Source: Lachnospiraceae bacterium (GTDB lineage: Bacteria > Bacillota > Clostridia > Lachnospirales > Lachnospiraceae). From it: a stretch of DNA of 64,000 nt. The notes beneath the pieces were generated by a model. It worked only from the letters and a program-made list of their open reading frames with translations. It was not told where the DNA came from and did no database searches. Positions 4,450 to 64,000 of the stretch are shown piece by piece (the first letter of the stretch is position 1; each line of letters begins with the position of its first letter). The stretch covers positions 124,001 to 188,000 of the forward strand of contig JALCKY010000005.1 in NCBI GenBank assembly GCA_022647575.1. Reading direction: 5' to 3'. The translations under genes were made by a program, and so were the position numbers.

Positions 4450-4450
4450 T
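4422..4450 (+). promoter_or_regulatory. Extended -10 promoter of the surface-protein gene
   Basis: TTCACA (4422-4427), a 17-bp spacer and TATAAT (4445-4450) preceded by TGC form an extended -10 promoter inside the last codons of the ABC-F gene. The surface-protein ATG is 64 bp downstream, so that gene can be transcribed independently. Confidence 0.7.
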
Positions 4451-4513
4451 TTTTTTAAGCGTTCATATAATATGAACATGCGGCTATGCCCAGCAGCAGA
4501 TCAGGAGGCGAAA

Positions 4514-40640: not shown

Positions 40641-42212
40641 TCATTTCTGCTGCTTCATCATTTTCAGCAGCACAGGCATATCGCTTAATCTGAAAAACTG
40701 GGTCGCAAACCTGCGTGCAAACTCCCGGCTTGGTTTAGAGCTCTCCACGGTCTTCTCCCGGATTTCCGGAGTCATGGCTGAATTCATTTTCACGAAATAC
40801 GCCATCGTTTCGCTCTGCCTTGCACTGCCTTTCGGATTGCAGGACTCCAAAGGAGTGCAGGATACTCCTCCCTCTGCGCATTTCTGCATAAGGACCGGCA
40901 GCCTTGAAAGGAACGAAGAATAGTTTTTCGAACCGGACCAGGCATTCTCTGCCAGAGCGTAGATCCTTGGAAAGATATGTTTTTCCAGCTCCCCATCCGA
41001 TTCGATATGTTCCGACCAGAGACAGGCTTCCATCCCCCTGAAAGAAGCACAGCCGCTATAGTCTTTTTTCCCGATCTTCGGACGGGATCCGTAGACCTTT
41101 CTCAGCGGGATCATGCTGTGCGGATAATCGAGATAGAGTTCAAACATATCCGAATAAATAAACTTCCCTTTGTCAGAAAAATCCTTCAGCAGTTTTGCCC
41201 TTTGTATATTCCAGTACTGGACAGACATTTCATCCGGCCGAATTTCGGAAATCAGGGTATCGTCCCAGCATACAGGAACCTTTCCGTATTTCTTCAGGAT
41301 TACGGAAATCCGCTTTGAGAAATACCCCTGCAGGTCATCGGACGTCAGGAGATGTTCCTCTTCCATCCTTCTTCGGCAGTCCGGACATGCTTCCCATTCA
41401 TTCTTCGGCGCCTCATCGCCGCCGATATGGAACCGTCCGGAGGGAAAGAGCTCACACACCTCTTTAAGGAGCCGTTCGAGGAAAGTGAAGGTTTCCTCTT
41501 TTCCCGCGCACAGGATTGTACGGTAAATGCCCCCGCATTCCGCAAGCTGCACTTTTTCCCGGCGGCAGCTGTATTCCGGATAAGCGGCAAGGATGCCCAG
41601 GGTATGCCCCGGAAGATCGATTTCGGGAATAATTTCCATTCCGCGTCTGCGTGCATATTCCACGATCTGACGGATCTCATCCTGTGTATAATAGCTGCCG
41701 CCGGTCTCATGAAGAAGCGGGAACTGCCTGGATTCAATCCTCCATCCCTGGTCATCCGACAGATGCCAGTGGAGGACATTGATCTTGGCCAGAGTGCTGT
41801 ATTCAATGATTCTTTTCACTTCCCCCGCGGAGAAAAAATGTCTTGCACAGTCCAGCATCAATCCGCGGTGGGCAAGGGATGGTGCATCCTCAATCCGGCA
41901 GACCGGGAGCATCCCTTCCCGGTCCTTCAGGAGAAAGAGCGTGGTCAGACCCCAGATGGCGCCGCGCTCACAGGAGGCTGCTATCTCCACCTGTTTCTCT
42001 CCGATATTTATCCGGTACCCCTCCTCCGGAAGCTCATTTTCCCGGACAAGTCTTACGGCATCGGATTTCCCGGCGGGGTCGGTTCCTGTCCTTTCGCAAT
42101 AGGCATCGGCACACCATGGGGCGAATTCTCCTGTCTCAATCCCCTTGGGAAACAGGCGTTTCGCTCCTCCGTCCGTCATCCTGCCCCTGACTTCAGGAAC
42201 AATCTTAATCAT
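40641..42212 (-). CDS. GH20 beta-N-acetylhexosaminidase-like glycosidase
   Basis: This 523-aa protein has an N-terminal GH20b-like domain (about 1-105) and a catalytic barrel with HRGLMLDCARHFF, NVLHWHLSDDQGWRIE, EIDLPGHTLG and the Asp-Glu catalytic pair HIGGDEAPKNEW. The Asp polarises the N-acetyl group and the Glu is the acid/base. There is no signal peptide, so it acts on imported glycans or lysates. Its ATG overlaps the GH3 stop in ATGATTAA, so the two are translationally coupled. It would release terminal GlcNAc or GalNAc from mucin-type or N-glycans. Confidence 0.92.
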   Translation of the reverse strand: MIKIVPEVRGRMTDGGAKRLFPKGIETGEFAPWCADAYCERTGTDPAGKSDAVRLVRENELPEEGYRINIGEKQVEIAASCERGAIWGLTTLFLLKDREGMLPVCRIEDAPSLAHRGLMLDCARHFFSAGEVKRIIEYSTLAKINVLHWHLSDDQGWRIESRQFPLLHETGGSYYTQDEIRQIVEYARRRGMEIIPEIDLPGHTLGILAAYPEYSCRREKVQLAECGGIYRTILCAGKEETFTFLERLLKEVCELFPSGRFHIGGDEAPKNEWEACPDCRRRMEEEHLLTSDDLQGYFSKRISVILKKYGKVPVCWDDTLISEIRPDEMSVQYWNIQRAKLLKDFSDKGKFIYSDMFELYLDYPHSMIPLRKVYGSRPKIGKKDYSGCASFRGMEACLWSEHIESDGELEKHIFPRIYALAENAWSGSKNYSSFLSRLPVLMQKCAEGGVSCTPLESCNPKGSARQSETMAYFVKMNSAMTPEIREKTVESSKPSREFARRFATQFFRLSDMPVLLKMMKQQK

Positions 42213-44688
42213 CGGATGATCCTCCCTTATCTTCGCACGGCAGCGGCTGGCTTTTCTCTTTCTTCATGAATTCCGATGCTGCACGCAGCAGATGCCCATT
42301 CGCAAGATCGGTGATGGCATAAGCCATATTCATCTGAAGCCTTCCTCCACCCATCTGGATCATGGCACGGGTGCTGTTCCTCGGGATCAGGTTCAGGACA
42401 AAATCCTGGTTCTTGACCATGGCATCCTTATCTTCCCCTTCCGGCATGGCTGCGATTTTCCTGCTGCTTCCCCACGACACCTTTCATGATCGACCGGTAA
42501 ATGACCCTGCCCATCCCGGTCGTCCTGTAATCTCCGATCGGCGATTCAATCGTGTAGGGCGTAACCGGAGGCTCGGGCGGAATCCTGTGTGCCAGAAGTT
42601 CAGAGAAGACCGCATCTGAAATTGTCCCGCCGGCAATATGCTCATAAGCATCACAGACCGCTTCGGAATACGGCGGTTCCGCGGCCGGATACCCTGACAG
42701 GACAGCCTTTCCGGTCAGACGGATATCACGGCTTGAAGCACCGACAAGAATGGGATAGGTTCCGTTTTCCACGACCCAGTCCCGGATGCCGGCATGGTAG
42801 TAGGCAAGATCCGATTCAGGGAAAGAAAGTTCCGCTGTCTTTTCCTCTCCGGGCTTCAGGCTTATTTTTGCATAGTACCCGCAGTTCCTTTTCCGGTTTG
42901 AACACGGCACTGTTTTCATTTCTTCCGGAATAAAGCTGGACGATCTCCCTGCCCGCGACGCTGCCTTTATTTCGTATCCGTACGGAAACGATGATCCTGT
43001 TTTCTTCCTGTCTGATTTCAAGACTGCTGTATTCAAACTCGGTATAGCTCAAGCCGAATCCGAAGGGATAGCGTATTTTCTCAGGGGCTTTATCGAAATA
43101 ACGGTAGCCCGCGAAAATTCCTTCCCTGTACTGTTCGATTTTCCCTTTGCTGTATTTCTCACCGAACGGGATATCCCCGCACGTCTTCATCCATGTCTCG
43201 CTCAGCTTGCCGCATGGATTGACCTCCCCGTAGAGCAGGCGCCGGCATGCTTCCCCGCCTTCCTCTCCCGGAAGGACCATGTTCAGAATGCCTGCAGCCT
43301 GATCCGCAAACGGCACTTCCATCGGACTGCCCCCGGAAAGAACGACAGCGACTTTCTTCCCTGCCCTGCACAGCGCGTCAATCAGCTCCAGCTGGTTCCG
43401 AGGCATGGAAAGGTCCTCCCGGTCAAATCCTTCGCTTTCGTAACTGTCCGTCAAGCCTCCGAAGAACAGGATGGTATCATAATCCGCAGCCGTTCTCAGT
43501 GCTGAGTTTTTGAGATTCTCATCTGTCTCCCCGGAAGCTTCGCGGTATCCCTGCACATACTCATAAGGAACCCCCGCCCGGTCGAAAGCTGCTTTCGGAC
43601 TTGTCAGATAAGCCGGATTGAGACCGCTTGATCCGGCACCCTGGCAGCGCATCTTCTCAAAAAGTTCTCCCGTTACCAGGACTTTTTTATTTCGATCAAG
43701 CGGCAGTATCCCGTCATTTTTCAGCAGAACCGCACACTCTTCGGCAATCTGTTCCGCAAGCATGCTGTGTTTCTTCAGCAGGGCATCGATTGTTTCGGGC
43801 TTCCTGACTGTTTTCTGTGCATCGGATATCAGCGTCAGCACCCTTCGGACAGACGTATCCAATGTCTCCGCAGACAGGCTTCCGTTTTTCAATGCCTCCA
43901 GAATGGCATTCCGGTTCGCATGAATGCCGCCGGGCATATCAAGATCCAGGCCGGCTTTTACGCCCGCGACGCGGTCGCGTGTCGCGCCCCAGTCGCTCAT
44001 GGCCAGACCGTCGAATTTCCATTCTTTCCGCAGGATATCCGTAAGAAGCTTTTTATTTTCCGAGCAGTGGATTCCGTTGATTTTATTGTAGGCACACATG
44101 ATGGTCCGGGGCTTTCCCTCCCGTACGCAGATCTCGAAACCGCGAAGATAAAGTTCACGGATCGTCCGTTCGTCCGCAACGGAGTCTCCCATGTAGCGAT
44201 GATTCTCGCAGTTATTCAAGGCAAAGTGCTTGGGGCATGCAGCCGTTCCGGATTCCTGGATTCCCCGGGTATAAGAAGCCGCCATCTTTCCGGACAGCAG
44301 GGGATCCTCGGAAAAATATTCGAAATTCCGTCCGCAGCGCGGATCCCTCTTCAGGTTGAGTGCCGGGTCCCAGGAGAACATCGACGCCATAGGCGGCGCA
44401 CTCCTCGCCGATTGCTTTTCCCATTCGCTCTGCATTTTCAGGATCCCAGCTGTCCGCGATGGCTGCAGGACACGGGAATGCCGTCGAAGGACAGGATTTT
44501 CCCAGCCCCGTCATGCCTTCCCCGTCGGAATCCGCTTTCCTTCGGACTCCGAGCGGCCCGTCCGTAAGAGAAACCGAAGGGATGCCGAGCCTCGGCACCG
44601 CATTCGTCATCCACGAATTGTATCCTTCCAGCAGGGCTGCCTTCTCACCGGCCGTCAGTTCTTTTAAAAGCTCTTCCGTCTTCTTCAT
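42205..44688 (-). pseudogene. GH3 beta-glycosidase with three frameshifts
   Basis: The pieces reconstruct one GH3 protein of about 825 aa: an N-terminal domain with LGIPSVSLTDGPLGVR; then LNLKRDPRCGRNFEYFSEDP, CPKHFALNNCE and the nucleophile segment DGLAMSDWGATRD (Asp in SDW); a C-terminal alpha/beta domain with VVLSGGSPMEVPF; and a fibronectin-like domain with GFGLSYTEFEYSS. Shifts lie at 44364-44366 (+1), 42877-42882 (+1) and 42470-42473 (+1 in a G run). ATG 44688 follows AAGGAGAGG. The first intact piece is only 158 aa, so the enzyme is lost as written. It opens the minus-strand operon and is divergent from an AraC regulator. Beta-glucosidase, beta-xylosidase or hexosaminidase activity would all be possible. 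Confidence 0.87.
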
Positions 44689-48826: not shown

Positions 48827-50430
48827 GACTTCTCCTTTTCCGAGGCATCTGTTTTTTCAGCTGTATCCGTTGTTCCTGCATCATCAGTCTTCTCAGCGAC
48901 ATCCGCTGTTCCTGCATCATCAGTCTTCTCAGCGGCATCCGTTGTTCCTGCTGCATCTGTCTTCTCAACTGCATCCGGATTTTCTCTGGCACGGATTTCT
49001 TCATGAATTGCCGGCAGCTTCTTTTCCAGATCAAAGAAGATAAAGATGACGGTGATGATCAGCATGCCGATGGCCGGAACCCCGAAGGTCGCCAGCGTAC
49101 AGAAATTCTGGACGGATGACGACTGTGCCACCCAGCTGCCGTCAGCAGCGGGAGCCACATAACCTGTCTGCGACAGTCCCATATTGAGGAGGCCGAGACC
49201 AAGGCCTGCCGTCACCGTAATGATGATGCTGTAGACCGATGAAGAAAAACCATCGCACCGGTGACCGCTCTGCCATTCCACATGATCCAGTGCATCAGCC
49301 AGAACCGAAAGGGTAACATAGGTAATCGGAAGTGCGCCGATCGAACGTATTGTCAGTGCAATGAGTGCAGCCGGCAGGCTGTGGGCGTAGATGACGCCGA
49401 CCGTTCCGCCGATGATTGCAATAATGCCGCAGGTCACATAGAGTTTCTGCTTGCCCAGTTTCTTGACCAGAGGCCAGATCAGCAGGACGCCGGGGCCGAG
49501 CAGGGCCTGTCCGATAATGTTCAGAAGGGAAAGCGTATGGCCGTCATTATACGTGCCTACGACCCAGTTCGCGTAATAAAGCATGGCATTGACGCTGATG
49601 TTATTGCAGAGCCAGTAGACAAACATGACGACCATCACCATGACCCAGTACTTGCTGGAAAGGCATCCCTTTACCTGCTCGCGGATGGATATTCCCTGGC
49701 TCGCTTTTTCATTGGCCGTCTGAATCTCTTCCGTGACGCGTTCCTTGATAAAGAAGTACTGCAGCAGCGTTCCTGCTTCGGCAAGCAGTGCCATGATTGA
49801 CATCACCATGATCCAGCGGCTCTGGTTCACGCCGATATAGGGAAGGATAAAGGATGGAAATACGACTGCCAGAATCACGCCAGCCACCATGTTGACTCCC
49901 ATCGACTGTGCGATCGCCAGCGTGTCGCGTTTCTTGTTGTCACGCGTGGAAAGCGGCAGGGTAATCACGTTGCTTAAATTGTACATGGTATAGGCGACGC
50001 AGAAAAACAGGTTGTAGCTGCAGGTCACCCAGATGGCCGTCACGGTCATGTTCGATGTGGGAACCGTAAAAAGCAGAATGGCGGAAATCGTCATCAAAGG
50101 TCCTGAAAGAAGGATCCAGGGTCTTGCTTTTCCCTGACGGCTCTTCGTGTTGTCCACGATGTGTCCCATGATGACATTGGTGATCGCATCCAGGATTTTG
50201 GAAAGAATGGGCATCAGCGTAAGAAACAGACCGGCTGCCAGACTGTTCAGATGAAGGACATCGGTATAGAAGCTGTTCAGATAGCTTCCTCCGACAGCCG
50301 CATAGACCGTGGCCACCAGCGCCGGTCCCATGAAGAACCCGATCCAGCGCTCCTTATTTCCAATCTCATCACTCTTGATTCTGGAATCAAAAACCGGCTT
50401 TTCTAACTGCGGGAACCTCCATGTCCTCAT
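48823..50430 (-). CDS. GPH/MFS-type sugar:cation symporter with a repeated acidic tail
   Basis: This 535-aa protein has 12 membrane helices and the GPH-family segments FMGPALVATVYAAVGGSYLN, KILDAITNVIMGHIVDNTKSRQG (first 20 residues KILDAITNVIMGHIVDNTKS) and ALDHVEWQSGHRCDGF. GGAGG is 7 nt before ATG 50430, and the start overlaps the GH2 stop (ATGA). After the last helix the C-terminal 55 residues are a cytoplasmic tail of near-identical 12-residue repeats (AEKTDDAGTTDT-like), which is unusual for this family. It probably imports the oligosaccharide processed by the GH2 and GH43 enzymes, coupled to Na+ or H+. Confidence 0.9.
   Translation of the reverse strand: MRTWRFPQLEKPVFDSRIKSDEIGNKERWIGFFMGPALVATVYAAVGGSYLNSFYTDVLHLNSLAAGLFLTLMPILSKILDAITNVIMGHIVDNTKSRQGKARPWILLSGPLMTISAILLFTVPTSNMTVTAIWVTCSYNLFFCVAYTMYNLSNVITLPLSTRDNKKRDTLAIAQSMGVNMVAGVILAVVFPSFILPYIGVNQSRWIMVMSIMALLAEAGTLLQYFFIKERVTEEIQTANEKASQGISIREQVKGCLSSKYWVMVMVVMFVYWLCNNISVNAMLYYANWVVGTYNDGHTLSLLNIIGQALLGPGVLLIWPLVKKLGKQKLYVTCGIIAIIGGTVGVIYAHSLPAALIALTIRSIGALPITYVTLSVLADALDHVEWQSGHRCDGFSSSVYSIIITVTAGLGLGLLNMGLSQTGYVAPAADGSWVAQSSSVQNFCTLATFGVPAIGMLIITVIFIFFDLEKKLPAIHEEIRARENPDAVEKTDAAGTTDAAEKTDDAGTADVAEKTDDAGTTDTAEKTDASEKEKS
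48845..48975 (-). repeat. 36-bp tandem repeats encoding the symporter tail
   Basis: More than three near-identical 36-bp units encode AEKTDDAGTTD-type 12-residue repeats. The high identity between units, including silent positions, points to recent expansion by slippage. Confidence 0.85.
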
Positions 50431-52829
50431 TCTGTTTCCTCCCTGCGATCTGGAATCGTCTTTATTTCCAACGTCTGCTTTTCAAGTTCGGGTCCGGTTA
50501 CTTCCACCTGAATGATGCCCGGTCCGTACCCCGCACGTATGACGGCAAGTGCCCTTCCATAATAGGTCGTATGTTCCTTACTGATGAAATCCTCCGCCAT
50601 GCACGGCCTTGCCGAACCGAAGGCCTGCAGGGTTCCGTCTCCCGTCACCGTGACGGAAAGCTTCCAGTCGCAGGAGGATTTAATGACTCCGTTCCGGTCC
50701 GCAATCCCGATATCGAGGAAGCACAGATCCTGCCCGTCTGCATGGAGCACTTTCTTATCCGGCACAAGACAGATCACGGTTTCCTTTCCTGCGGAAATAA
50801 GGCGGCTGCGGCCGGTCTCTTCTTTATTTTCCTTCTGCGCAGAAACTTCCAGCACTCCCGGCTGATACGGCACTTTTTTAAAAACCGCACAGTCTTCGAA
50901 GGTCTTCTTCCTTCCCAGACTCACCCCGTTGCAGATCAGCTCCGCATAAGGTGCATCCGAATACACGGTCACATCCGCTTTCTTTCCTTCGCACCCTTCC
51001 CATGACCAGCTGGCAATCGTGTCCTTTTTTCTCCACATGCGTCTGGATTTGAAATGATCGGCATGGGTATAGGGGTCTACGCCGATCACGGGATTCTTTT
51101 CGAGTCCCCAGATGATCCTGTTCCATCCGGCCTCCGGTCTCATTTTCCCGCAGATATCGATCACGCCGGCACCGGAGGTGATGATCAGTCCGGGATCCAC
51201 ATCCTTCTTTGTACGGCGGTCCAGATAGCGGATCGTCCCGATTCCTGACTCGCCCAGATAATCCCAGCCGGTCCACATAAAATCGCCGATCAATGTAGGG
51301 ATCTGTTTTACCAGCTGCCAGTTGCGGAAAAGGGTATGCGTCATGGTCTCGCTGCCGACCTCCGGCTGTCCGGGCACGTTCAGCGCATCTTTTTTGTAGC
51401 GGGATGTCGCATAGTTATAACCGGGGATATCCAAAATTCCGCGGAGGACTTCAGCGATGCGGTCAGCCCGTTTCGTCGAAGCGGCCTTGTCCATCTGATT
51501 TCCGAGATAGTTCGTCAGCTTATTGAAGAACTCGGAGGTCGGCGCTTTCGCCGTATCATCCGTGCCCTGTTCCGATTCATTGGCAAATGGCTTCGACTTC
51601 CTGCTGAAGGATGCCATCTGTGCCAGAGCAAGGTTGACACCCGCCGTGACCGGACGGCTGGGATCCATCCGATGGCAGAAGTCCGTCATTTTCCTGGCCA
51701 TCTTCTGGCCATCCGCCCTGCCGAGTTCCGAGATTTCATTTCCGATGGAATACATCACGACGGAAGGATGGCTGAAATCCTTATCGATCATCGCTGCCAG
51801 ATCATGGCACCACCAGTTTTTGAATGATTCTCCTGCATAATCATAGGGATTCTTGTGTACGAGCCACATGTCAAATGCTTCATCCATGACGTACATCCCC
51901 AAGCGGTCGCAGGCACGAAGCATTGCCTTCGAAATGGGATTGTGTGCAGAGCGCACGGCGTTGAAGCCTGCCTCTTTCAGGATGCGAATGCGCCTTTCTT
52001 CAGCATCCCGGAACGCGCAGGCACCGAGGATGCCGTTGTCATGATGAATGCATGCCCCGCGGAGAAGGACCGGTTTTCCATTTACCAGAAAGCCTTCTTT
52101 CCCCCAGCTCAGGGTTCTCATGCCGAAAGAAGTGACTGCCGTATCCGTCACGCTGCCCCCATTTTCAATGCAGGCTTCGCAGGTGTAAAGATACGGATGC
52201 TCCGCATCCCAATGCCTGGCATCCTGGATCTGCAGGATCACGTCCGTGCCTTCGCCTTCACAGATACAGCTGTCTTCAGAGAGGATCCTCACCCGGACCT
52301 GGCTGCTGCCGTCGATTTTTCCTGACGTCTGAATCCGGATCCGCTCATCGTCAAGCACGGTGATCCTGGGACTGCCGGGTGCGATGTATTCATTTCCGCC
52401 GATATACAGATGCACTTCCCGGTAGATTCCGCTTCCGGAATACCACCTTGTGTTGGGAACGGCGCTGTTGTCCGCGATGACCGTCAGTTCATTCTTTCCT
52501 TCGCGGACCCTGCCGGTTGCATCCGCAGAAAAACCGGTATAGCCATAGGGATGCTCCGCAATTTTTTCTCCGTTGAGAAATACGCCGGCTTTCTGATAGA
52601 CGCCTTCGAATTCGAGAAGAAGGGTTTTCCGGCAGAGCTCTTTCGAAACCTGCCATTCTTTACGATAGGTATATTTGCCGCCGTCAAAAAAAGCTCCCCC
52701 GCTGCCGGATTTGGCTTTCGGGGAACGATTTTCACGAAGCATGGCATCGTCAGGCAGGTCAGTGATCCGGATCCTGTCTGAACCTTCCTTCTGTACAGAC
52801 CAGCTTTGATTCAAGTCACATTCCTGCAT
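50427..52829 (-). CDS. GH2-family beta-glycosidase
   Basis: This 800-aa protein starts at ATG 52829 behind AGGAGAGA; an in-frame ATG at 52874 lacks a ribosome site. Order: sugar-binding jelly roll (YTYRKEWQV, VFLNGEKIAEHPYGY, RWYSGSGIYREV), an immunoglobulin-like domain, then the barrel with RGACIHHDNGILGA, FNAVRSAHNP and the acid/base MYSIGNEISE. The nucleophile region is PEVGSETMTH, and MWTGWDYLGESG follows. C-terminal DUF4982-like and beta domains follow. It is cytoplasmic. It resembles beta-galactosidases and beta-glucuronidases of gut Firmicutes; the sugar is not settled by motif. It is the first gene of the GH2-symporter-GH43-phosphotriesterase operon. Confidence 0.92.
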   Translation of the reverse strand: MQECDLNQSWSVQKEGSDRIRITDLPDDAMLRENRSPKAKSGSGGAFFDGGKYTYRKEWQVSKELCRKTLLLEFEGVYQKAGVFLNGEKIAEHPYGYTGFSADATGRVREGKNELTVIADNSAVPNTRWYSGSGIYREVHLYIGGNEYIAPGSPRITVLDDERIRIQTSGKIDGSSQVRVRILSEDSCICEGEGTDVILQIQDARHWDAEHPYLYTCEACIENGGSVTDTAVTSFGMRTLSWGKEGFLVNGKPVLLRGACIHHDNGILGACAFRDAEERRIRILKEAGFNAVRSAHNPISKAMLRACDRLGMYVMDEAFDMWLVHKNPYDYAGESFKNWWCHDLAAMIDKDFSHPSVVMYSIGNEISELGRADGQKMARKMTDFCHRMDPSRPVTAGVNLALAQMASFSRKSKPFANESEQGTDDTAKAPTSEFFNKLTNYLGNQMDKAASTKRADRIAEVLRGILDIPGYNYATSRYKKDALNVPGQPEVGSETMTHTLFRNWQLVKQIPTLIGDFMWTGWDYLGESGIGTIRYLDRRTKKDVDPGLIITSGAGVIDICGKMRPEAGWNRIIWGLEKNPVIGVDPYTHADHFKSRRMWRKKDTIASWSWEGCEGKKADVTVYSDAPYAELICNGVSLGRKKTFEDCAVFKKVPYQPGVLEVSAQKENKEETGRSRLISAGKETVICLVPDKKVLHADGQDLCFLDIGIADRNGVIKSSCDWKLSVTVTGDGTLQAFGSARPCMAEDFISKEHTTYYGRALAVIRAGYGPGIIQVEVTGPELEKQTLEIKTIPDRREETE

Positions 52830-52896
52830 GATTCTCTCTCCTGTTCCGGATTGGAAACATCCGACTGGCAGCAACGATTCCTTACTTCATGATTGG

Positions 52897-54268: not shown

Positions 54269-55903
54269 TTATTGAGTCTCTTTACCGATCATTTCCTTTG
54301 ATTCAGCTTCCTGCTTGATCATCTCAGCCGGCATGTGACCATAATCTTTTTTCATCCATTTCATCCATCCGACAAGGACAATGATCATAATGAAAACAAT
54401 TGGTATCGCTGTTATGATCGCACATGTTTTGATCGTATTAAGGTTTGCATTGATGAAGATCATTGTCAGCGGCACCAGTGACAGCATGATGCACCAGAAC
54501 AGCCTGAGCATCGGGCTGGGTTCTTCGGTGTTTTTAAGCCCCTTCGTTGTTGTCGTCGCCATTGTATAAGCAGAACCGTCAAGCGTGGTTGCCAGGAACA
54601 GTAAAGTGGAAATGCAGAATATCACCATGAAGATCTTACCCAGCGGAAGTGATGACAGGACCTGCACGATTGCGTTATTTGCCTGACCATTTGCCACCAT
54701 GCCGACAACATCGATTGCTCCTGAAATCTGACGCTGCATGGAAAGGCTTCCCAATACGCCGAAGAATAAGAATGTCCCTGCGCTTCCGCTGATTAATGTA
54801 TTGATGATGACTTCCCTGACTGTACGTCCTTTAGAAACTTTGGCTATGAACACTCCGGTAAATGGTGCATACGTAATCCAGTAAAGCCAGTAGAAGATCG
54901 TCCACGCTTCCGGGAATCCGGATTTGCCGATAGGATCGGTAAAAAGACTCATATGAACGAAATTCTGAAGCATCAGGCCAATCGAATTTGTAAAATTACT
55001 TAAGATAAACAGAGTCGGACCCGTAACTAAAACGCCTACTATGAAGATCAGCATCAGTTTGATATTCCAGTCTGACAGCCTTGCCATGCCTTTCTGGAGT
55101 CCGATATAGGAACTCAGCGAATAGATGACAGACAGGATAACAATGATGACCACATTCATCGCAAAGGTTGGCTCAATTCCTATGACCGAGCACAGCACTT
55201 CCGTAACCAGCGGAGAAGAAACACCGAGAGTAATGCTCAATGCTCCGAAGCAAATGAAGATAAAGAGCACATCAATAATTCTGGAAATGATGCCGTCCTT
55301 TTTGAGTCCTGTTATGGAACAGACAATCGAGCTCAAACTTAAGCCATTGTTTTTGCGGACATAGAAATGATAGGCAATCGGCACCCCGATCATGGCGTAT
55401 AAAGCCCATGCGCTGAATCCCCAGTGGAACATTGTATACGGAACACTCATTTCATATGCCTGCTGTGAATAGGCCTCGATGCTTAAGCCGGGTGTCTTAA
55501 TGTAATATGCCCATTCGACAAATGCCCAGTATACCGTTGCGGAACCAAGTCCGCAGCTGATCATCATCGCAACCCACCGGAATGTAGAATATTCGGGTTT
55601 GCCTTCACCCAGTTTGATATTCCCATATTTGCTGATGGCTACAAAGACCAACAGCAGCAGTCCGCCAAAGGTAAACATGAGTACAGGTGCTCCGAAGATA
55701 TTTGTCAGTGTAGTAAATAATGTATTTGCTACATTCTGTGACGCATCAGGAAAAGTATAGAGGCATGCAACAATAGCCAGAACAACAACCAGGCTTATAC
55801 CGATTAAAAACTTATCCAGCGACTTTTTTTCTTTCACAGTCTCTGCTGTATTTTCTTTCACGTTCTCTTTTACATTCTCTTTTACATTCTCTGTCTCACT
55901 CAA
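54269..55903 (-). CDS. BCCT-family transporter (betaine/carnitine/choline type)
   Basis: This 544-aa protein has 12 membrane helices. The N-terminus carries a charged 4-residue repeat (ENVK three times). The BCCT signature region is GSATVYWAFVEWAYYI with SVPYTMFHWGFSAWALYA, and later TIFYWLYWITYAPFTGVFIA, which hold the aromatic-box tryptophans for trimethylammonium substrates. It is 18 bp behind the enolase-superfamily gene, so the two form an operon. The substrate could be a quaternary amine such as carnitine or betaine, but a BCCT paired with a dehydratase might also carry another zwitterion or acid. Confidence 0.92.
   Translation of the reverse strand: MSETENVKENVKENVKENTAETVKEKKSLDKFLIGISLVVVLAIVACLYTFPDASQNVANTLFTTLTNIFGAPVLMFTFGGLLLLVFVAISKYGNIKLGEGKPEYSTFRWVAMMISCGLGSATVYWAFVEWAYYIKTPGLSIEAYSQQAYEMSVPYTMFHWGFSAWALYAMIGVPIAYHFYVRKNNGLSLSSIVCSITGLKKDGIISRIIDVLFIFICFGALSITLGVSSPLVTEVLCSVIGIEPTFAMNVVIIVILSVIYSLSSYIGLQKGMARLSDWNIKLMLIFIVGVLVTGPTLFILSNFTNSIGLMLQNFVHMSLFTDPIGKSGFPEAWTIFYWLYWITYAPFTGVFIAKVSKGRTVREVIINTLISGSAGTFLFFGVLGSLSMQRQISGAIDVVGMVANGQANNAIVQVLSSLPLGKIFMVIFCISTLLFLATTLDGSAYTMATTTTKGLKNTEEPSPMLRLFWCIMLSLVPLTMIFINANLNTIKTCAIITAIPIVFIMIIVLVGWMKWMKKDYGHMPAEMIKQEAESKEMIGKETQ
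55850..55892 (-). repeat. 12-bp tandem repeat at the BCCT N-terminus
   Basis: About three 12-bp units (GAGAATGTAAAA type on the coding strand) encode the ENVK repeats in the cytoplasmic N-terminus. Confidence 0.75.
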
Positions 55904-55921: not shown

Positions 55922-57036
55922 CTAGATTTTGTACTTTTCAATCATATCTTCATCAAGTTCCGCTCCCAATCCGATGCAATCCGGCACTGTGACATAACCG
56001 TTTTCAAACGGAATGCGGTTCGTAACCAGATCCTGGAATAAAGGACTAGTCGACTGAGAATATTCCATCAGATTTCCCTGCTCTGTTGCTGCAAGGAACT
56101 GAACGGTTGCCGCCAACAGGATTCCCGTACTGAAACCATGAGGAATCAGTTTCGTGCCGCTCATCTGAGCCATGTCATATATTTTTCTCATCTCGCTGAT
56201 TCCGCCGCAGCGCGTCACATCCGGCTGTACAATATCGACCTGTGATTTCTTTATGAATTCAGCGAATTCATATCTCGTTGTCAATGCTTCGCCGCCCGAT
56301 ATCTTTGAAATACCCATGGCGGCAAGTCTTGCATATCCATCCATGTCATCGCCCATAATCGGTTCTTCTATCCAGTTCAGATGGAACGGTTCCATTCTTT
56401 TAAACATGCCGGCAGCATTTCCGTAGGTTCTCCATTTTGTGGCGAGATCAATCTGCAGTTCAAAATTTTCTCCCACTTCATGCCTGACAGCCTTAACAAT
56501 TTCAACATCGAGATCGGGGTCATCACCCAGGACGCCGCCGCCGAATTTAAGACTGGTAAATCCCTGATTGATCAGATCCCTTGCAATTCTGCAGCTTCCT
56601 TCCGGCGTATCTGCGGGAATGAAAGTCCCATAAGCACGGATTTTATCTCTGTATTTACCGCCCAGCAGCATGTAAATCGGAACTTTGTAATACTGCGAGG
56701 CAATATCCCAAAGAGCAATGTCAATCGCACTGATTACATGGATGCCCAGTCCTCTTCTTCCGTTATAGTTGGAAGACCAGTACATTTTGTCCCACAGCTT
56801 CTGTATTTCCAAAGGATTTTCGCCAAGCAGCAAACGGCTTAATCCTCCGCAGTACAGATTTGATTCAGGCGCCTCCACCATTGCCCTGGCTACAGTCGGG
56901 GAAGTATCGCTTTCACCAAGACCGACAATTCCTTCATCCGTATAAACCTTAACCAAAAAAGCATCATCACCCCATTCGCATGGGTCTTCCCATTTCGGAA
57001 TCCGAAGACATATTGGTTCTACTTCGTAATTTTCAT
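55922..57036 (-). pseudogene. Enolase-superfamily (mandelate racemase/sugar-acid dehydratase-like) enzyme, frame disturbed at codon 5
   Basis: The reconstructed protein is about 371 aa: VEPICLRIPKWEDP, LQIDLATKW (metal Asp), NWIEEPIMG (metal Glu), ISGGEALTT (metal Glu), QPDVTRCGGISE and IPHGFSTG (His of the His-Asp dyad). The best start is ATG 57036, 7 nt after GGAGG (57044-57048), giving MKIT. The frame then meets a stop unless one base is restored near 57022-57026 (MKITKVEPICL). The long open frame instead begins at 57199 inside a neighbouring IS remnant on the opposite strand and is not a native start. Members dehydrate acid sugars or epimerise acids. It forms an operon with the BCCT gene; the upstream promoter region seems replaced by the IS. 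Confidence 0.8.
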
Positions 57037-57048
57037 ATTCCCACCTCC

Positions 57049-58258
57049 GTGCAGGGACTGCGACATCCCCGATGGAACCCGATGTCCCTGCTGCGGTGCC
57101 CCGGCTGAATACATCTACCGGAACAACGGGGGGAAAGGGCCAGTACCAGTGCAAGGTCTGCCATACCCTGTTCTCTCCGGAAAAGAACCGATTCCACAAA
57201 TCCTACGAGCTTCGCTGCCCATTCTGTGGGCATGCCCTCGTACCCGTGAAAAACCGGAAGTTCTTTGTCATCTGGAAGTGTGTCAACAGCAGATGCCCCT
57301 ACTATGCTGACAGACTGAAGAAGGTCCGGGCAGACTCCCCAAACGGGAAATCCGATTATAAGCTCCATTACATCTACCGCGAGTTCTCCGTCGATTTCTT
57401 CAGGATGGAGCTGGGCGGCCCTTCCCGGAAAATCGCATCCATGCGCTTCCGCAAATACGATGCCAACGTCATGGGCCTGTGCCTCACGCTCCGCGTCAAC
57501 CTGCAGCTTTCCCTCCGGCAGACCTCCCAGGCCCTCCAGGACCTGTACGGCTTCCGTGTCTCCCACCAGCAGATCGCCAACTACTGCCGGCTCGCCGCCC
57601 TGTGCGTCAAGCCCTTTGTCGACAGCTACCAGTACCATCCCGGAAGCAGCCTCGTCGCGGATGAGACCTACATCAAGATACGCGGGATCAGGTCCTATAT
57701 CTGGCTCATCATGGATTCCGTCAGCCGTTCCATCCTCGGCTACCGCGTCTCCGGGGACCGTACCGTCGGCCCATGCATCATGGCGATGCGCATGGCCTTC
57801 CGCCATTTCAGGGACGGCCTGCCGAAGGACTTCCGTTTCATCGCCGACGGCTACAGTGCCTATCCGCTTGCCGCTCAGCAGTTCTTCCGGGAGTTCGGGG
57901 AACGGATGAGGTTCGAGATCACCCAGGTCATCGGCCTCAGAAACGGGGGACGCGGTAACGACCGAGTTCCGTCCCTTCAAACAGCTGATCGAGCGTCTGA
58001 ACCGCACCTACAAGTCCTCCTACCGCACAACGAACGGTTACGACGGGATGGATGGGGCTGACTGTGACCTGGTCTTATGGGTGGCCTACTACAACTTCCT
58101 GCGCCCGCACACTTACAACCGGAATAAGGTGCTGAACGCCGTGGATACGATACAGGCTGCGGGCACCATGCCGGGGCAATGGCAGGGTCATGATCTACCT
58201 TGGCCAGAAGGCCATCCTTGAAAGCCAGAAACAGAAGCAGGCACAGGCCTGTTCATAG
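57049..58258 (+). mobile_element. Degraded insertion sequence remnant with frameshifted DDE transposase
   Basis: The left end abuts the ribosome site of the enolase-family gene at about 57049 and begins inside the transposase N-terminus (CRDCDIPDGTRCPCCGAPAE), so the 5' end of the element is missing. The reconstructed protein has a double zinc ribbon (CPCCGAPAEYIY, CPFCGHALVPV), then a DDE domain with VADETYIKI, FIADGYSAYP and FRPFKQLIERLNR, and ends in YYNFLRPHTYN and MIYLGQKAILESQ. This is IS6/IS240-like in the DDE order. Three extra bases fall in G runs at 57128-57133, 57945-57949 and 58185-58187. The right end is not defined; a terminator at 58466-58488 may belong to it. No terminal repeats or target duplication could be identified. 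Confidence 0.8.
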
Positions 58259-58652
58259 ATTCCGATCCCGAGGCGTCTTCCCAGCCACCCCGCAGGGGCC
58301 CGCCCCTTGACCGCATACCGGAGCCGCGCTAAGCTGTCATGGGCTACGACGGGTGGAGTCTGTCTGTTCATGAGTTCTTCACCGTCGGCGCAGTCCGAAG
58401 AGCGCGGATCTGGTATGCTGTCAAGGGTGGCGTCCGCTTCCATCAACGAAATATTTGCTGTTTTCAGGGTCCGTCACGGGCCCTTTTTCAGGCCCAGCGT
58501 TTTCATAGCTTATTTGACACTACCTTGAATTTAAGATGGCTAGAAGATAACATTTGCATTTTGCACTGTCAAATCGGCATTTTCCGCCTAATTTTTGTAC
58601 ATTTTAGACAGTAATTTCAGCTTTTCCTATTTGCAATCTCCTTCACGATGAA
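58259..58652. other. Intergenic stretch without a supported gene
   Basis: Between the transposase stop and the inverted repeat at 58653 I see no coding sequence with a ribosome site. It holds a terminator (58466-58488) and a wide-spaced inverted repeat, ATTTGACA...TGTCAAAT (about 58510-58576). The composition changes from GC-rich (IS-like) to AT-rich near 58500, probably the right end of the IS remnant. Confidence 0.6.
58466..58488 (+). terminator. Rho-independent terminator near the right end of the IS remnant
   Basis: The stem AGGGTCCG/CGGGCCCT has loop TCA and is followed by TTTT. It would end plus-strand transcription from the transposase before the regulator gene. Confidence 0.75.
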
Positions 58653-58705
58653 TTAAAATCAACTCATGGCAATCCGTATGAGTCAATCTCATGAGTTGAT
58701 TTTAA
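58653..58705. promoter_or_regulatory. Perfect 16-bp inverted repeat upstream of the PAS-AAA regulator
   Basis: TTAAAATCAACTCATG (58653-58668) and CATGAGTTGATTTTAA (58690-58705) are exact reverse complements with a 21-nt gap that holds a third copy-like TATGAGTCAAT. It lies about 100 bp before the regulator ATG and has no T tract, so it looks like a binding site for a dimeric or tetrameric regulator rather than a terminator. Confidence 0.7.
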
Positions 58706-58803
58706 CTCGCTAAGAAAAAATCATGATTTTTCAATTTTTTCATTTTCAGCGTTTTGTATATTTTCAATATTCATAATTGTGTAAATTCACAAAGGAGTCT
58801 GCC

Positions 58804-60114
58804 ATGTCAGAATTCTTTTCCACCCCTATTCAGGGCCTTGATTACATGACATTTTTTTCAATCGTTGATCAGTCTTATGATGAGCTTCTGATCTATGATG
58901 ATAATTACAATATCGTATATATCAATCAGGCCTGTTCCCGCCATTATGGCTGCAGTTCAGCAGAAATGATCGGGAAAAATTTTTACGATCTTGTAAGCGA
59001 AGATTGGTGGAATCCCTCTCTGCTGCCCATCGTCTATAAAGAAAAAAAGCCATTTGCTCAACAGCAAATGACCCGAGTGGGTGCAGAACTATTAACAATT
59101 GCCGTTCCTGTTTTTGATGACAAGCAGAAACTGCGTTTTGTCGTCATGAATGTCCGTGACAAAATAAATGAAGCGGATCTCTATCACGCGCCGCAGTATG
59201 AAACTGCCGATTCCGAAGAACCGGAAGCAGATATTGTTTACAACAGTCCGGTTATGCTTAAGATTATTGCTTCTGCAAAAAAAATCGCACAGCTTCAGGC
59301 CCCCTGCATCATTTCCGGTGAAGCCGGCGTCGGTAAATCTACACTTGCAAGATATATACACATGCACAGTCCGCGAAAAGACAATCCATATCTGGTCATT
59401 CACTGCGCATCTTTGTCGGAAGAAAATCTTCAGAAGGAACTGGAGCTTGGCATGACGGATGCCGGTACATTGTCAGCAGTGAAAAACGGCACCCTGGTTT
59501 TTACCAACATTGAGAAACTATCCCTTGCTGCTCAGAATAAGCTTTGTGAATACATCGCCTATCTCCAGAGCAAAGAATCCGGAACTTCTTTCATCGCAAC
59601 AACTTCCAGGGATTTGGCGCAAATGATTACCTATAATCAATTTCACAAAGGGCTTTACTATATTCTTCATGTCTCAGATATTCTTATTCCGCCTTTGAGA
59701 AAACGTCCGGAAGATATCAGCGTGCTGATTTCGACCTTCCTGAATCATTTTTCTGAAAAATATCATTATACGAGATATTTTTCAGAAGCTGCCATGCAGA
59801 TCATGCTGCAGGCAGATTGGAATAATAACGTCCGGGAATTGAAATATGTAATTGAAAGACTGTTCATCAGTTCTGAGACAATCGTAATTGACGTTGATCA
59901 ACTGCCGTCTCTTCTGTTCGGAATTTCACAGAGCGAAAACACGCTGCTTTCAGCCGATTCCGAAATGGGTTTTGATGACAGGGTTGCGCAGTATGAATCA
60001 CTGCTTATCCACGATGCTTATGAAAAATACGGTACTTCAAGGAATGTTGCCTCGCATCTGAAAATAAGCCAGACAAAAGCCAATAATCTGATCAATAAAT
60101 ATATTCACAAGTAG
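58804..60114 (+). CDS. PAS-AAA-Fis-type regulator with degenerate ATPase motifs and no GAFTGA loop
   Basis: This 436-aa protein starts at ATG 58804 behind AAAGGAG. A PAS domain (about 12-120) has LLIYDDNYNIVYINQACSRH. A sigma54-activator-like AAA domain (about 145-370) and a C-terminal Fis/TyrR-type helix-turn-helix (TSRNVASHLKISQTKANNLI) follow. Walker A is intact (GEAGVGKST, 172-180), but Walker B reads GTLVFTNIEKL (229-239), where family members have acidic DE at 234-235. The GAFTGA loop that contacts sigma54 is absent, and the arginine-finger stretch FRxDLYYRL reads FHKGLYYIL (280-288). It therefore probably cannot work as a normal sigma54 activator; TyrR/PhhR-like action with the main sigma factor is the closest known model. 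It lies divergent from the enolase-BCCT pair, with an IS between. Confidence 0.88.
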   Translation: MSEFFSTPIQGLDYMTFFSIVDQSYDELLIYDDNYNIVYINQACSRHYGCSSAEMIGKNFYDLVSEDWWNPSLLPIVYKEKKPFAQQQMTRVGAELLTIAVPVFDDKQKLRFVVMNVRDKINEADLYHAPQYETADSEEPEADIVYNSPVMLKIIASAKKIAQLQAPCIISGEAGVGKSTLARYIHMHSPRKDNPYLVIHCASLSEENLQKELELGMTDAGTLSAVKNGTLVFTNIEKLSLAAQNKLCEYIAYLQSKESGTSFIATTSRDLAQMITYNQFHKGLYYILHVSDILIPPLRKRPEDISVLISTFLNHFSEKYHYTRYFSEAAMQIMLQADWNNNVRELKYVIERLFISSETIVIDVDQLPSLLFGISQSENTLLSADSEMGFDDRVAQYESLLIHDAYEKYGTSRNVASHLKISQTKANNLINKYIHK

Positions 60115-60117
60115 ATT

Positions 60118-63100
60118 TTATTTGCTAATAATCGTTTCTGATAATTTTTTATATAAAAGCTCCGGATCAATCGGCTTCGCAATATGTCCGTTCATGCCTG
60201 CCTGAAGACATTGCTGTATGTCATCCGTAAAAGCATCGGCCGTCATGGCAAGAATGGGCACGGTTTCTGCATCTTCACGTTTAAGGGCCCGGATTGCCTT
60301 CGTCGTCTCATAGCCATCCATGACCGGCATATGGATATCCATCAGAATACAGTCGAAATATCCGATGTTCGATTCGCTGAACGCCCTGACGCCGGCTTCA
60401 CCGTCATCAGCGATTGTCACAATCACATTGCGCTTCTCCAGAACTGCTTTTGCAATCTCCTGATTCAGCGGATGGTCCTCGCACAGAAGCACATGCTTCC
60501 CCGCAAGCAGCATCATCTCTTTGTCTGCCTGCATGCTTTTTTTCAGAGATTCTGAATCGAGTGAAGACGCCGACACCGTATCAAACCGGAGCGTGACATA
60601 GAATGCCGTCCCTTCGTTCGGAGAACTTAGTACCTTGATGGTACCTCCCATCTGATCCACAATCTTTTTCACGATGGCAAGGCCAAGCCCGGTACCGCGT
60701 CGTTCCGAAGCATATTTTCGGTTTTCCTGCGTGAAAGGCTCAAACAGGACTTTCTGAAATTTCTCGCTCATTCCGATCCCGTCATCCCTGATTTCATGTT
60801 CGATCTGCATTTCCCCGGATTCGAGCATTTTACCTGAGACTCTGTATGTAATTGTCCCGCCTTCCGGCGTATATTTCACGGCGTTGGAAAGCAGATTGAA
60901 AATGATCTGATTGCATCGCAGTTTATCCGCGATCGGAACCTCATCAAAAATGGTAAATTCTTCATCAAGGATAAATTTCTGTCCTTTTTCCCGGCATAAC
61001 GGACGGACAATCGCATCAACATATTTATTCAGCTCATCTACCGTATACGGCTCCGGATGCAGTTCGATTTCTCCGCTTTCCGCCTTGGACATGTCCAGCA
61101 CGTCATTGATAAGGGAAAGCAGGAACTTGGATGAGGTATCGATCTTTTCCAGATTCTCCCTGGCCTTTTGTGGGAGTTCCATCTCCTGCGTCAGATAAGT
61201 CATTCCTATGATTCCGTTCAACGGCGTTCGCATATCGTGGCTCATGCGTGACAGGAACTCCGTCTTCGCAGAGTTCGCGCTGTCTGCCGCATCGCGCAGC
61301 AGCTTCTCATTTTCAAGCTGCCGCTCAAGCTTATCCTGCAGTTCCACCTCATGCTCGGAAACCCGGTAGCTCGCATAAAAGATATGTCCTTCGGGACGGA
61401 TCTCCCGAAGGATCGCCTCCTGGTTGATCCAGACCGGACTTCCGTCCTGCTTCAGGATGCGGTAATTTCCCACCCGGAAATATTCCTGATCATATCCGTC
61501 ATGGAAAGCCTTCCTGACCCTTTCAAGATCATCCGGGTGAACCGCGATGAAAGCATCCTTCATATAGGCATCGATCAGCGGATTGCTCATCAGGATCTCC
61601 CGGGCATTGGAACCGTCCGGTTTCTCCATGCCCAGGATACGGAACATCTGCATGTTGACGAATATCCCTTCCAGATGGTCGGCATCCGGCATACGGAACG
61701 AGACAATGCCTGTGCTGACGGAATCCAGGATATCCTCAACATAGGCATTCTCCTTCTTCTGCTTAAGAACTGTATTCGTCACATCGGACTGAACAATCAG
61801 GACCGTGTCATGGACATCATCCAGATAATAGTACTGAAGCCTCCGGTACCTGAATTCATCCGGCTTTCCGGAATCGTGCACACGCACCTGATATTCATAA
61901 AACCCTTCTTTTTCAAGATGTCCGGTGATCACATCATTCCTGCAGCTGTCAAGATAGAACTGTCTGTCTTCGGAAACGACAGAAGTATCTGCCGCAAACT
62001 GCGTGACAGTCTCATGCGTGAAAACGGCATCCGGATTACCCAATTTTTCATGGAATTCCGACAGAATCCTGCTGCTTAAGTTCAGGAAGCGGATTGTATC
62101 GGTTTTCAGATCCAAAAGCGCTTCGCAGTCATATTCCCGGTCCGTGATAATGCTGAAGGCCCGGCTGCGGCATTTCTCATTTGTGACATTGAGCGAATAG
62201 ATAATGCCTTCGATATCCCCGCTTTCCGGGTTCCGGAGCATCCGGACGAACGACCGCACCCAGATCAGCCTTCCGCTTTCTGCCTTTCGCCGGTAGTCCA
62301 CGGAATAATCCGTCTTTCCGTCACGATAGACCTCCAGCAGTTTTTTCCTGTTGAAGTTATTCTGGAACTCTGCACGTTCTTCCGGATTGGGAATCATATT
62401 GGCAGCATTTCCGATCATTCCGTCAACGGAATCTGACTGCAGAGAGTTGAGGACATACCTTGAGACGCCATGTGCTTCATAGCAGATGTTTTTCGTCAGA
62501 TTGACACGGAAAGTACAAAGCGATTCAGGGTTGGCCATGAAAAGGGACTGGATGGTATGGCTGAACATCTCCCGCTGTTCCTGTTCCTTCACCGCCCTGA
62601 TATAGGCATTTGCGACTGCATAGGCCAGGGAGACAAGAAGTTCTCCTGTATTCTCAATCTTTTCCGGAGAGGGATTGTCAATGCCGACAAAACCGATCAG
62701 CTGATTCTCATTGTATAAAGGTGCCTCTGCCATGCTGTGAATATCCTGCTCCGTCAGTATCCGGTATTCTTCCGGCTTACTTTCACGGATCTTCTCGACG
62801 TCGGGCGTGACAAGCGCTTTATTTTCTTTAAAATAAGGCATCCAGCGGTCAATAAAATGGATATCTCCCCCCTGCAGCTTGTCGATCTGCGGTTCGACTC
62901 CGTCCCTGCAGCATTCGTAGGCATTATCCAAAGTTCCGTTTTTATTGATCAGGAAAATATAGGAACGGTCGCCCTGGAAATAATCCACGCTGTTTTTCAA
63001 AGCGCTGTTCAGGCGCTCATCGATCGTGCCGCTTCCATTAATAAGCTGAATTGCCGTAGCAAGCTCCCGCTGCGTATCCAGGACTATCTGCATCTCATGT

Positions 63101-63450
63101 TCTCTGGCAATATGGTCGCTGACATCGAATGCGACTTCAATTCTGGCATGATGGCCCTGATAGTCAATCAGGTGATCCTGCAGCTGATAGGTTCTGTTCA
63201 GCAGTTCATTATAATGTTCCCAGCAGAATACCTCATCTTTTTTCAGCTTTGCATTCGTACAGAAAGGGCAGGGAGCATCAAGCCCCTGGATCAGCTTATA
63301 GCATTTCTTTCCTGCATAATCATCGCAGTGCAGCGACTGCAGGCTGATCCTGTTCATGTACAGAATCTCATAGGTATCGATATCCGCCACATAGACAGCC
63401 TGGTGAAGTTCCTCGACCAGATGGCTGGATTCAACTGCTGAGTTTCCCAT
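60118..63450 (-). CDS. Hybrid sensor histidine kinase, paralog lacking one PAS module
   Basis: This 1110-aa protein starts at ATG 63450 behind GGAGGAAG. The domain order matches the kinase at 10102: N-terminal PAS-like domain with APCPFCTNAKL, GAF (about 150-290), PAS-like segments, HisKA SHDMRTPLNG (His738), HATPase (NAVKY, DDGIGM, GTGLG) and receiver (LMDIHMP, Asp1038). It differs by a clean absence of about 124 residues: EQEQREMFSHTIQSLF joins directly where the other protein has a full PAS module. No Hpt or DNA-binding domain is present. It converges on the PAS-AAA regulator with 3 bp between stops. The two kinases arose by duplication. Different ligand ranges are likely; the stimulus is unknown. 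Confidence 0.93.
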   Translation of the reverse strand: MGNSAVESSHLVEELHQAVYVADIDTYEILYMNRISLQSLHCDDYAGKKCYKLIQGLDAPCPFCTNAKLKKDEVFCWEHYNELLNRTYQLQDHLIDYQGHHARIEVAFDVSDHIAREHEMQIVLDTQRELATAIQLINGSGTIDERLNSALKNSVDYFQGDRSYIFLINKNGTLDNAYECCRDGVEPQIDKLQGGDIHFIDRWMPYFKENKALVTPDVEKIRESKPEEYRILTEQDIHSMAEAPLYNENQLIGFVGIDNPSPEKIENTGELLVSLAYAVANAYIRAVKEQEQREMFSHTIQSLFMANPESLCTFRVNLTKNICYEAHGVSRYVLNSLQSDSVDGMIGNAANMIPNPEERAEFQNNFNRKKLLEVYRDGKTDYSVDYRRKAESGRLIWVRSFVRMLRNPESGDIEGIIYSLNVTNEKCRSRAFSIITDREYDCEALLDLKTDTIRFLNLSSRILSEFHEKLGNPDAVFTHETVTQFAADTSVVSEDRQFYLDSCRNDVITGHLEKEGFYEYQVRVHDSGKPDEFRYRRLQYYYLDDVHDTVLIVQSDVTNTVLKQKKENAYVEDILDSVSTGIVSFRMPDADHLEGIFVNMQMFRILGMEKPDGSNAREILMSNPLIDAYMKDAFIAVHPDDLERVRKAFHDGYDQEYFRVGNYRILKQDGSPVWINQEAILREIRPEGHIFYASYRVSEHEVELQDKLERQLENEKLLRDAADSANSAKTEFLSRMSHDMRTPLNGIIGMTYLTQEMELPQKARENLEKIDTSSKFLLSLINDVLDMSKAESGEIELHPEPYTVDELNKYVDAIVRPLCREKGQKFILDEEFTIFDEVPIADKLRCNQIIFNLLSNAVKYTPEGGTITYRVSGKMLESGEMQIEHEIRDDGIGMSEKFQKVLFEPFTQENRKYASERRGTGLGLAIVKKIVDQMGGTIKVLSSPNEGTAFYVTLRFDTVSASSLDSESLKKSMQADKEMMLLAGKHVLLCEDHPLNQEIAKAVLEKRNVIVTIADDGEAGVRAFSESNIGYFDCILMDIHMPVMDGYETTKAIRALKREDAETVPILAMTADAFTDDIQQCLQAGMNGHIAKPIDPELLYKKLSETIISK

Positions 63451-63747: not shown

Positions 63748-64000
63748 TTACGCTATACATTTTTGCAATGCAGAATAAAGCAGCTTCGGATCAATCGGTT
63801 TTGCAATATGTCCATTCATTCCGGCATCCCGGCATTTCTGAATGTCATCCGCAAAAGCATCCGCCGTCATGGCGATAATCGGAATTGTCTTTGCATCCGC
63901 CCGACTGAGTGCGCGGATTGCCTGTGCGGCTTCTAATCCATTCATAACGGGCATGCGGATATCCATCAGGATGCAGTCAAAATATCCAACCGGAGCTTTT
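63748..64000 (-). CDS. C-terminal receiver domain of another hybrid kinase (N-terminus beyond right edge)
   Basis: The frame is open from the right edge to the TAA at 63748-63750 (about 83 codons). It encodes the second half of a receiver domain: FDCILMDIRMPVMNG with the acceptor Asp, PIIAMTADAF, and the ending NGHIAKPIDPKLLY. This ending is almost the same as those of the kinases at 10102 and 60118. It is therefore very likely the end of a further member of the same kinase family, directly upstream of the 1110-aa kinase on the same strand. No terminator is visible in the 297-bp gap. Confidence 0.85.
   Translation of the reverse strand, partial: KAPVGYFDCILMDIRMPVMNGLEAAQAIRALSRADAKTIPIIAMTADAFADDIQKCRDAGMNGHIAKPIDPKLLYSALQKCIA

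Follow-up and report, generated by a model that had tools for sequence, protein, structure and literature searches.

The regulator gene and its surroundings

The window, by which we mean the whole stretch of 64,000 nucleotides analysed from a Lachnospiraceae bacterium, contains near its end a gene for a PAS-AAA+-HTH regulator, P0001, which opens with an ATG at 58804, closes with a stop codon at 60112-60114 and is preceded by a ribosome-binding site that we rated good (AAAGGAG, 58791-58797). On one side the gene is flanked by the remnant of an IS element, an enolase-superfamily dehydratase gene and a BCCT-family transporter gene, and on the other by a histidine kinase gene; no dha kinase genes lie beside it (Table 1). 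The kinase is a large PAS-type hybrid, encoded directly 3' of P0001 and convergent with it (60118-63450, minus strand), and a second receiver-like fragment, also 3' and convergent, is found at 63748-63966 (minus strand). The same window holds glycoside hydrolase genes at 40641-44435 and 50427-52874 (minus strand), comprising GH20, GH3 and a GalB-like beta-galactosidase.

Table 1. Features of the regulator locus, in positions of the window
Feature	Position	Strand	Remark
BCCT-family transporter	54269..55903	-	75% (G543) and 71% (G094) identical to the relatives' copies
Enolase-superfamily dehydratase, body	55922..57025	-	77% (G543) and 70% (G094) identical to the relatives' copies
IS6/IS240-type element remnant	57050..58495 (edges approximate)		between sigma70-like promoter and operon
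Sigma70-like promoter, TTGACA-17-TATCTT	58544..58572	-	reads towards the operon; consensus match only
Operator-like inverted repeat, three ATGAGTYRA half-sites	58650..58708		half-site drawn by eye
P0001, PAS-AAA+-HTH regulator	58804..60114	+	436-aa ORF, domain profiles
PAS domain, residues 18-120	58855..59163	+	without excess change
AAA+ core, residues 143-298	59230..59697	+	sole region with significant excess change
Walker A GEAGVGKS, residues 172-179	59317..59340	+	kept
L1 loop	59437..59490	+	shortened, without GAFTGA
Walker B LVFTNI	59494..59511	+	Asp-Glu replaced by T234-N235
Pre-sensor-I stretch and sensor I	59548..59610	+	8 residues shorter; sensor-I Asn replaced by S268
FHKGLYYIL in place of FRxDLYYRL	59641..59667	+	H281, G283, I287; RxDxxxR to HxGxxxI
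AAA lid, residues 299-380	59698..59943	+	sensor-II R344 kept
TyrR-type helix-turn-helix, residues 388-436	59965..60111	+	without excess change

The domain scores mark P0001 as a genuine member of the sigma54-activator family. Sigma54_activat scored 82.2 bits against a curated Pfam cut-off of 20.2, AAA_lid_14 scored 66.7 (cut-off 27) and PAS 27.6 (cut-off 22.6), while HTH_50, at 26.5 bits, fell just below its cut-off of 27. The top-scoring NCBIfam model was that of DhaR (NF008485), at 169 bits and below its cut-off of 551, and the models of PrdR (NF041552, 159.6 bits, cut-off 795) and TyrR (NF008085, 126.8 bits, cut-off 576) were likewise not reached. With a bEBP fold that has lost GAFTGA, P0001 also falls among the sigma54-independent bEBP derivatives, which are a kind rather than a family.

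Nearest relatives and the control region

Searches for homologs took in 61 relatives together with 392 genomes from the order and 397 from the family. No ortholog of P0001 was counted in 36 same-genus genomes, seven of which gave matches of 23-33% identity that do not cover the PAS domain. The best relatives among the matches listed are L152, from the same family (genome G543), and L022, from another family (G094), both intact in ATPase and GAFTGA and both encoded in genomes that carry rpoN. Quick trees without bootstrap joined the three proteins with SH-aLRT values of 97 (full length) and 98 (AAA core removed). Each of the two relatives stands divergent beside a dehydratase and a BCCT transporter gene, the same pair as in the window. 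P0001 is 41% identical to the G543 relative and 41% to that of G094; between G543 and G094 identity reaches 63% for the regulator, 80% for the dehydratase and 84% for the transporter.

The dehydratase is rare in the order, being found at E <= 1e-130 in 2 of 226 genomes, of which the host is one. In genome G341 an 80%-identical dehydratase stretch adjoins a more distant regulator, L134, without ATGAGTYRA half-sites, so the pairing of regulator and operon is not strict; L134 itself (G341:C1:258000-261300) has a TGA stop inside its search match. BCCT genes adjoin several other members of the clade, and a quaternary amine is a fair guess for the ligand of P0001. Other collections contributed three weak relatives. 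A Priestia megaterium plasmid protein, 36% identical, adjoins a ring-hydroxylating oxygenase operon, and on an IMG/VR contig listed as viral a 35%-identical PAS activator (L183, 2028-3380) adjoins a BCCT gene (3470-5011); plasmid and phage relatives reach at most 36% identity among the best matches listed, and a search of viral contigs with P0001 and A1 returned no relatives.

Between P0001 and the operon, the three ATGAGTYRA half-sites of the inverted repeat are the only ones in the window. The same half-site occurs three times in the intergenic region of one relative (L173), twice in that of the other (L172) and upstream of none of 16 other clade members, figures that are descriptive because the half-site was drawn by eye from the same regions. 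Both relatives carry an exact TGGCRY-N5-TTGCW before the dehydratase (L172, 4304-4319, minus strand; L173, 16744-16759, plus strand), whereas the window has no -24/-12 site at the expected place and a sigma70-like promoter there instead. The region holds four sigma70-like sites against 1.2 expected, and shuffling the 154-bp strand 20,000 times produced an exact TTGACA with such a partner in 36 cases. P0001 shares with L022 and L152 the divergent operon and the half-sites, and differs from them in their intact ATPase and GAFTGA, their rpoN-bearing genomes and the -24/-12 promoters at their operons.

Within the IS remnant, a transposase-like ORF (57072-58061) matched DDE_Tnp_IS240 with 29.7 bits and an IS6 model with 63.4 bits, below the cut-off of 125, and by eye its frame seems truncated or shifted. 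In 60-base steps the GC fraction is 0.47-0.73 in the remnant, 0.23-0.40 past its right edge and 0.40-0.52 to its left; we considered the remnant as a possible promoter donor. Beside it, the dehydratase ATG used in the relatives (57034-57036, minus strand) is, read by eye, out of frame with the body as assembled. This frame break may reflect damage or a fault of the assembly; the relatives have intact copies. Together, the remnant and the out-of-frame start suggest that the former target may no longer be in use.

The ATPase core and the sigma54 status of the host

Residues of P0001 were read by alignment with E. coli PspF and the nearest relatives, and all hydrolysis columns proved to be changed in P0001 and kept in those relatives. 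The L1 stretch is reduced to 17 residues, where PspF has 26 and either of the nearest relatives 27, and the pre-sensor-I stretch has 21 against 29; both losses are in frame. The change from FRxDLYYRL to FHKGLYYIL removes the middle Asp of RxDxxxR too, and the switch Asn is replaced by H200; the sensor-II Arg is retained. The alignment, which the earlier note had proposed for the Walker B, GAFTGA and arginine columns, accordingly agrees with what that note had read from the letters, namely a kept Walker A, a Thr-Asn pair in Walker B, the replacement of both arginines and a missing GAFTGA; the changes at the switch Asn, at sensor I and in the pre-sensor-I stretch go beyond what the note named. 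In PspF, the substitutions N64Q, D107A, E108A, R162H, D164A and R168A lower Vmax from 39.5 to 0.08-1.5 per minute (PMC3419264, Table 1), and P0001 is altered at each of these positions, if not always to the same residue. Catalysis from shifted positions is unlikely: the nearest acid is E237, three residues past T234, in a column that is Ser, Ala or Gly in the relatives.

A profile search for Sigma54_DBD gave no match in the host genome (3.03 Mb) and was positive in 4 of 14 control genomes. In the genus, rpoN scored above cut-off in 3 of 42 genomes, with weak partial matches below cut-off in three more; in G003 and G032 it lies within 5 kb of an intact activator on the same contig. P0001 is the sole PF00158 match of the host at E <= 1e-12 among the matches listed, and three further matches, weak and partial, are taken for other AAA proteins. 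A sigma54 that was missed, with rpoN in the unassembled part of the genome and P0001 working with it in an odd way, is very improbable. The completeness of 94.3% and the scattered rpoN matches in the genus would allow it, but no second PF00158 match at E <= 1e-12 is listed for the host, P0001 has no GAFTGA, and the -24/-12 site is missing from its expected place; the only one-mismatch site nearby (57450-57465, minus strand) points to the operon from inside the IS remnant, and such matches number five in the window, below the chance mean of 8.15. That P0001 has lost ATP hydrolysis and its contact with sigma54, as the earlier note had also proposed, is well supported at the level of sequence by the changed hydrolysis columns and the undetected rpoN.

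P0001 might still bind nucleotide without hydrolysing it and act as a switch, with ATP or ADP setting the oligomer and hence DNA binding. Its Walker A and sensor-II Arg are intact, features retained in 10 and 3, respectively, of the 31 degenerate loci of rpoN-less genomes surveyed below (P0001 included), and for NtrC of Rhodobacter capsulatus ATP binding is reported to be required and hydrolysis dispensable (PMC10274813, a preprint). The same preprint, however, reports that VpsR needs no ATP, and P0001 lacks the switch Asn, the sensor-I Asn and the Arg at the R168 position. In the PspF data, variants of R162, D164 and R168 are constitutive hexamers and all R168 variants tested have a Km >3 mM, so that the ATP affinity of P0001 may be poor (PMC3419264). 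We regard the switch as rather doubtful; it refines the explanation preferred below, and the two overlap.

The distribution of change along the protein was assessed by comparing P0001 with L022, L152 and L023-L026, and then L022 and L152 with L023-L026. Identity in the AAA core was 35-40% for P0001 against 56-60% for L022 and L152, while the ranges were 50-58% against 50-56% in PAS, 34-38% against 38-41% in the lid and 49-55% against 41-56% in the HTH. Relative-rate counts were made for two sister sequences and three outgroups, that is, in six comparisons that share sequences. In the core, 42-50 changes fell to P0001 and 16-20 to the sister sequence, with p from 0.0001 to 0.007 in all six, and PAS, lid and HTH, which as shorter domains give less power, showed significant excess in none. 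The absence of excess change in PAS and HTH fits the suggestion of the earlier note that the former is the input and the latter the output.

These counts bear on whether P0001 is simply a gene in decay, useless without sigma54 and on its way to a pseudogene. The host has no rpoN match, the core is eroded, the IS remnant splits the gene from an operon whose dehydratase start, in the assembly, does not match the reading frame, and 36 congeners have no ortholog, all of which would suit decay. A simply dying gene, however, would be expected to speed up uniformly, so the core-only excess speaks against it; moreover, the frame is open over 436 codons behind a good ribosome-binding site, the L1 and pre-sensor-I losses keep the frame, and Walker A is whole. 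Decay is in our judgement unlikely.

A probable regulator without its motor

We surveyed 104 loci with known rpoN status, chosen by similarity rather than at random among the matches listed, and including nine further places of rpoN-less genomes and 20 of the order search. Four fragments (L114, L105, L106, L119) were dropped before counting, seven loci of unknown rpoN status, all intact, were left out of the Fisher test, and the place in G419 was left out, as were PF00158 places whose frames measure about 545-576 aa and match no further than position 121-122, which we take to be Lon-type proteases. In rpoN-bearing genomes 64 of 67 loci are intact, the others being L020 (in G003, which has an intact one too), L091 (a piece interrupted by stops) and L137 (whose L1 is altered). 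Among the 37 loci from genomes in which rpoN was not detected, 31 are degenerate, counting L086 (G256), which scores 193 bits and was possibly misread by alignment. Per genome, 54 rpoN-bearing genomes have an intact locus and one does not, against four with and 26 without among the 30 rpoN-less genomes scored, so that in these 26 only degenerate activators occur among the loci read. The four exceptions, G231 (94% complete) and G200, G277 and G285 (76-79% complete), are likely due to missing contigs; in the family of G231 (f17), all genomes among the matches listed carry rpoN except G231, G256 and G357. A -24/-12 pattern accompanies 34 of the 64 intact loci with rpoN and none of the 31 degenerate loci without it, and in the latter Walker B is kept once and GAFTGA never. 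In six degenerate loci the third P-loop Gly is Glu (L009, L013, L090, L101), or Glu followed by Thr (L089, L092), giving GxxGxEK or GxxGxET.

The table of rpoN loss against motor loss yields a Fisher p of 1.4e-16 from counts that are not phylogenetically independent. The label changes nine times on the tree, with only two changes forced by starred branches, and the five independent pairs on starred branches give no significant sign test, so an independent correlation is not claimed. One DhaR-like clade, which includes E. coli DhaR (support 84, long branches inside), holds 20 of the 31 degenerate loci, and quick trees with or without the AAA core place P0001 apart from it, with the caution that P0001 is among the long branches of the survey tree. 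The distinct class envisaged by the earlier note did not emerge: P0001 has no ortholog in the 36 same-genus genomes and stands alone beside two intact relatives, the bulk of the degenerate loci belonging to that separate clade. Three members of the clade from the same genus (L015, L016 and L020, in G018, G026 and G003), each about 634 aa long and devoid of working Walker motifs, show dN/dS values of 0.05-0.08 (0.05-0.07 in the dead AAA core and a looser 0.16-0.30 in the C-terminal part), which implies that selection can maintain a core that has lost its motor.

Taken together, we consider it reasonably probable that P0001 is a DNA-binding regulator which responds through its PAS domain, does without sigma54, has a dead ATPase and works in the manner of E. 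coli DhaR. This explanation is based on the residue losses, the lack of an rpoN match, the synteny, the retained operator-like sequence and the excess change confined to the AAA core. The ancestor would have been a sigma54 activator controlling the divergent dehydratase-BCCT operon. With no sigma54 detectable in the genome, its AAA+ domain would have lost the sigma54-contact loops and ATP hydrolysis, with the PAS sensor, the lid and the DNA-binding HTH staying under selection. P0001 would sit on the inverted repeat (58650-58708) and, in response to a signal that is perhaps a quaternary amine or a sugar acid, act on the housekeeping RNA polymerase, presumably with sigma70, both at the promoter of its own gene and at the sigma70-like one (58572-58544). 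Later on, the operon may have been disconnected from P0001 by the IS remnant.

More tentatively, the locus could be a natural record of a sigma-factor switch, in which a whole sigma54 circuit of PAS activator, operator, -24/-12 promoter and transport operon, lodged in a sigma54-less genome, had its promoter turned into a sigma70 type, kept its operator and its sensing and DNA-binding domains, and converted its ATPase into a non-hydrolysing scaffold that still regulates. Because separately derived motorless activators are under strong purifying selection in the same genus, dead bEBP domains may form a standing stock of regulatory material in bacteria that have no sigma54. What defines a sigma54 activator is its motor, and P0001 is a fresh case of an already known rewiring, an activator without motor and sigma54 partner. 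The value of the finding lies in the syntenic before/after comparison, which gives the ancestral circuit, with the operon and the type of operator unchanged, the motor there or gone and a -24/-12 promoter set against a -35/-10 one, and thereby makes the role of the AAA+ domain after loss of hydrolysis testable. For proteins of this sort in rpoN-less genomes, the automatic annotation 'sigma 54-interacting transcriptional regulator' is misleading.

In architecture P0001 equals the intact PAS activators found at BCCT operons, namely L022, L152 and the rest of their clade, and our literature search turned up no publication on a BCCT-operon activator that has lost its motor. VpsR of Vibrio cholerae and NtrC of R. 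capsulatus are, like P0001, bEBP derivatives without GAFTGA; both are response-regulator types, and P0001 has a PAS domain. They act on sigma70 promoters (PMC10274813, PMC3162934). Francke et al. (2011, PMC3162934) list TyrR, DhaR and HupR as sigma70-dependent derivatives with altered GAFTGA, count about 110 homologs with such deviations, and name Fusobacterium nucleatum and Jannaschia as lacking sigma54 with an altered activator present. A study of the Clostridiales sigma54 regulon sought activators in species that have the sigma54 gene (PMC6615313), so cases like P0001 would lie outside its scope. The pilE gene uses sigma54 and an activator in Neisseria elongata, while in N. meningitidis rpoN, which is atypical there, is dispensable for pilE; unlike the P0001 case, the portion of that paper available to us describes no retained motorless activator (PMC6755734).

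The closest parallels are in E. coli. TyrR shares with P0001 a bEBP fold without GAFTGA and a related HTH (HTH_50), but keeps the Walker B Asp-Glu and the RxDxxxR arginines, in line with what the earlier note had said of TyrR-like members. DhaR, like P0001, keeps the glycines and Lys of Walker A and has lost GAFTGA, both Walker B acids, the sensor-I Asn and both RxDxxxR arginines. The two differ in that DhaR has lost the sensor-II Arg and kept the switch Asn, the reverse of P0001, and in size (639 against 436 aa); DhaR adjoins dhaKLM and P0001 the dehydratase-BCCT pair, and they belong to separate clades.
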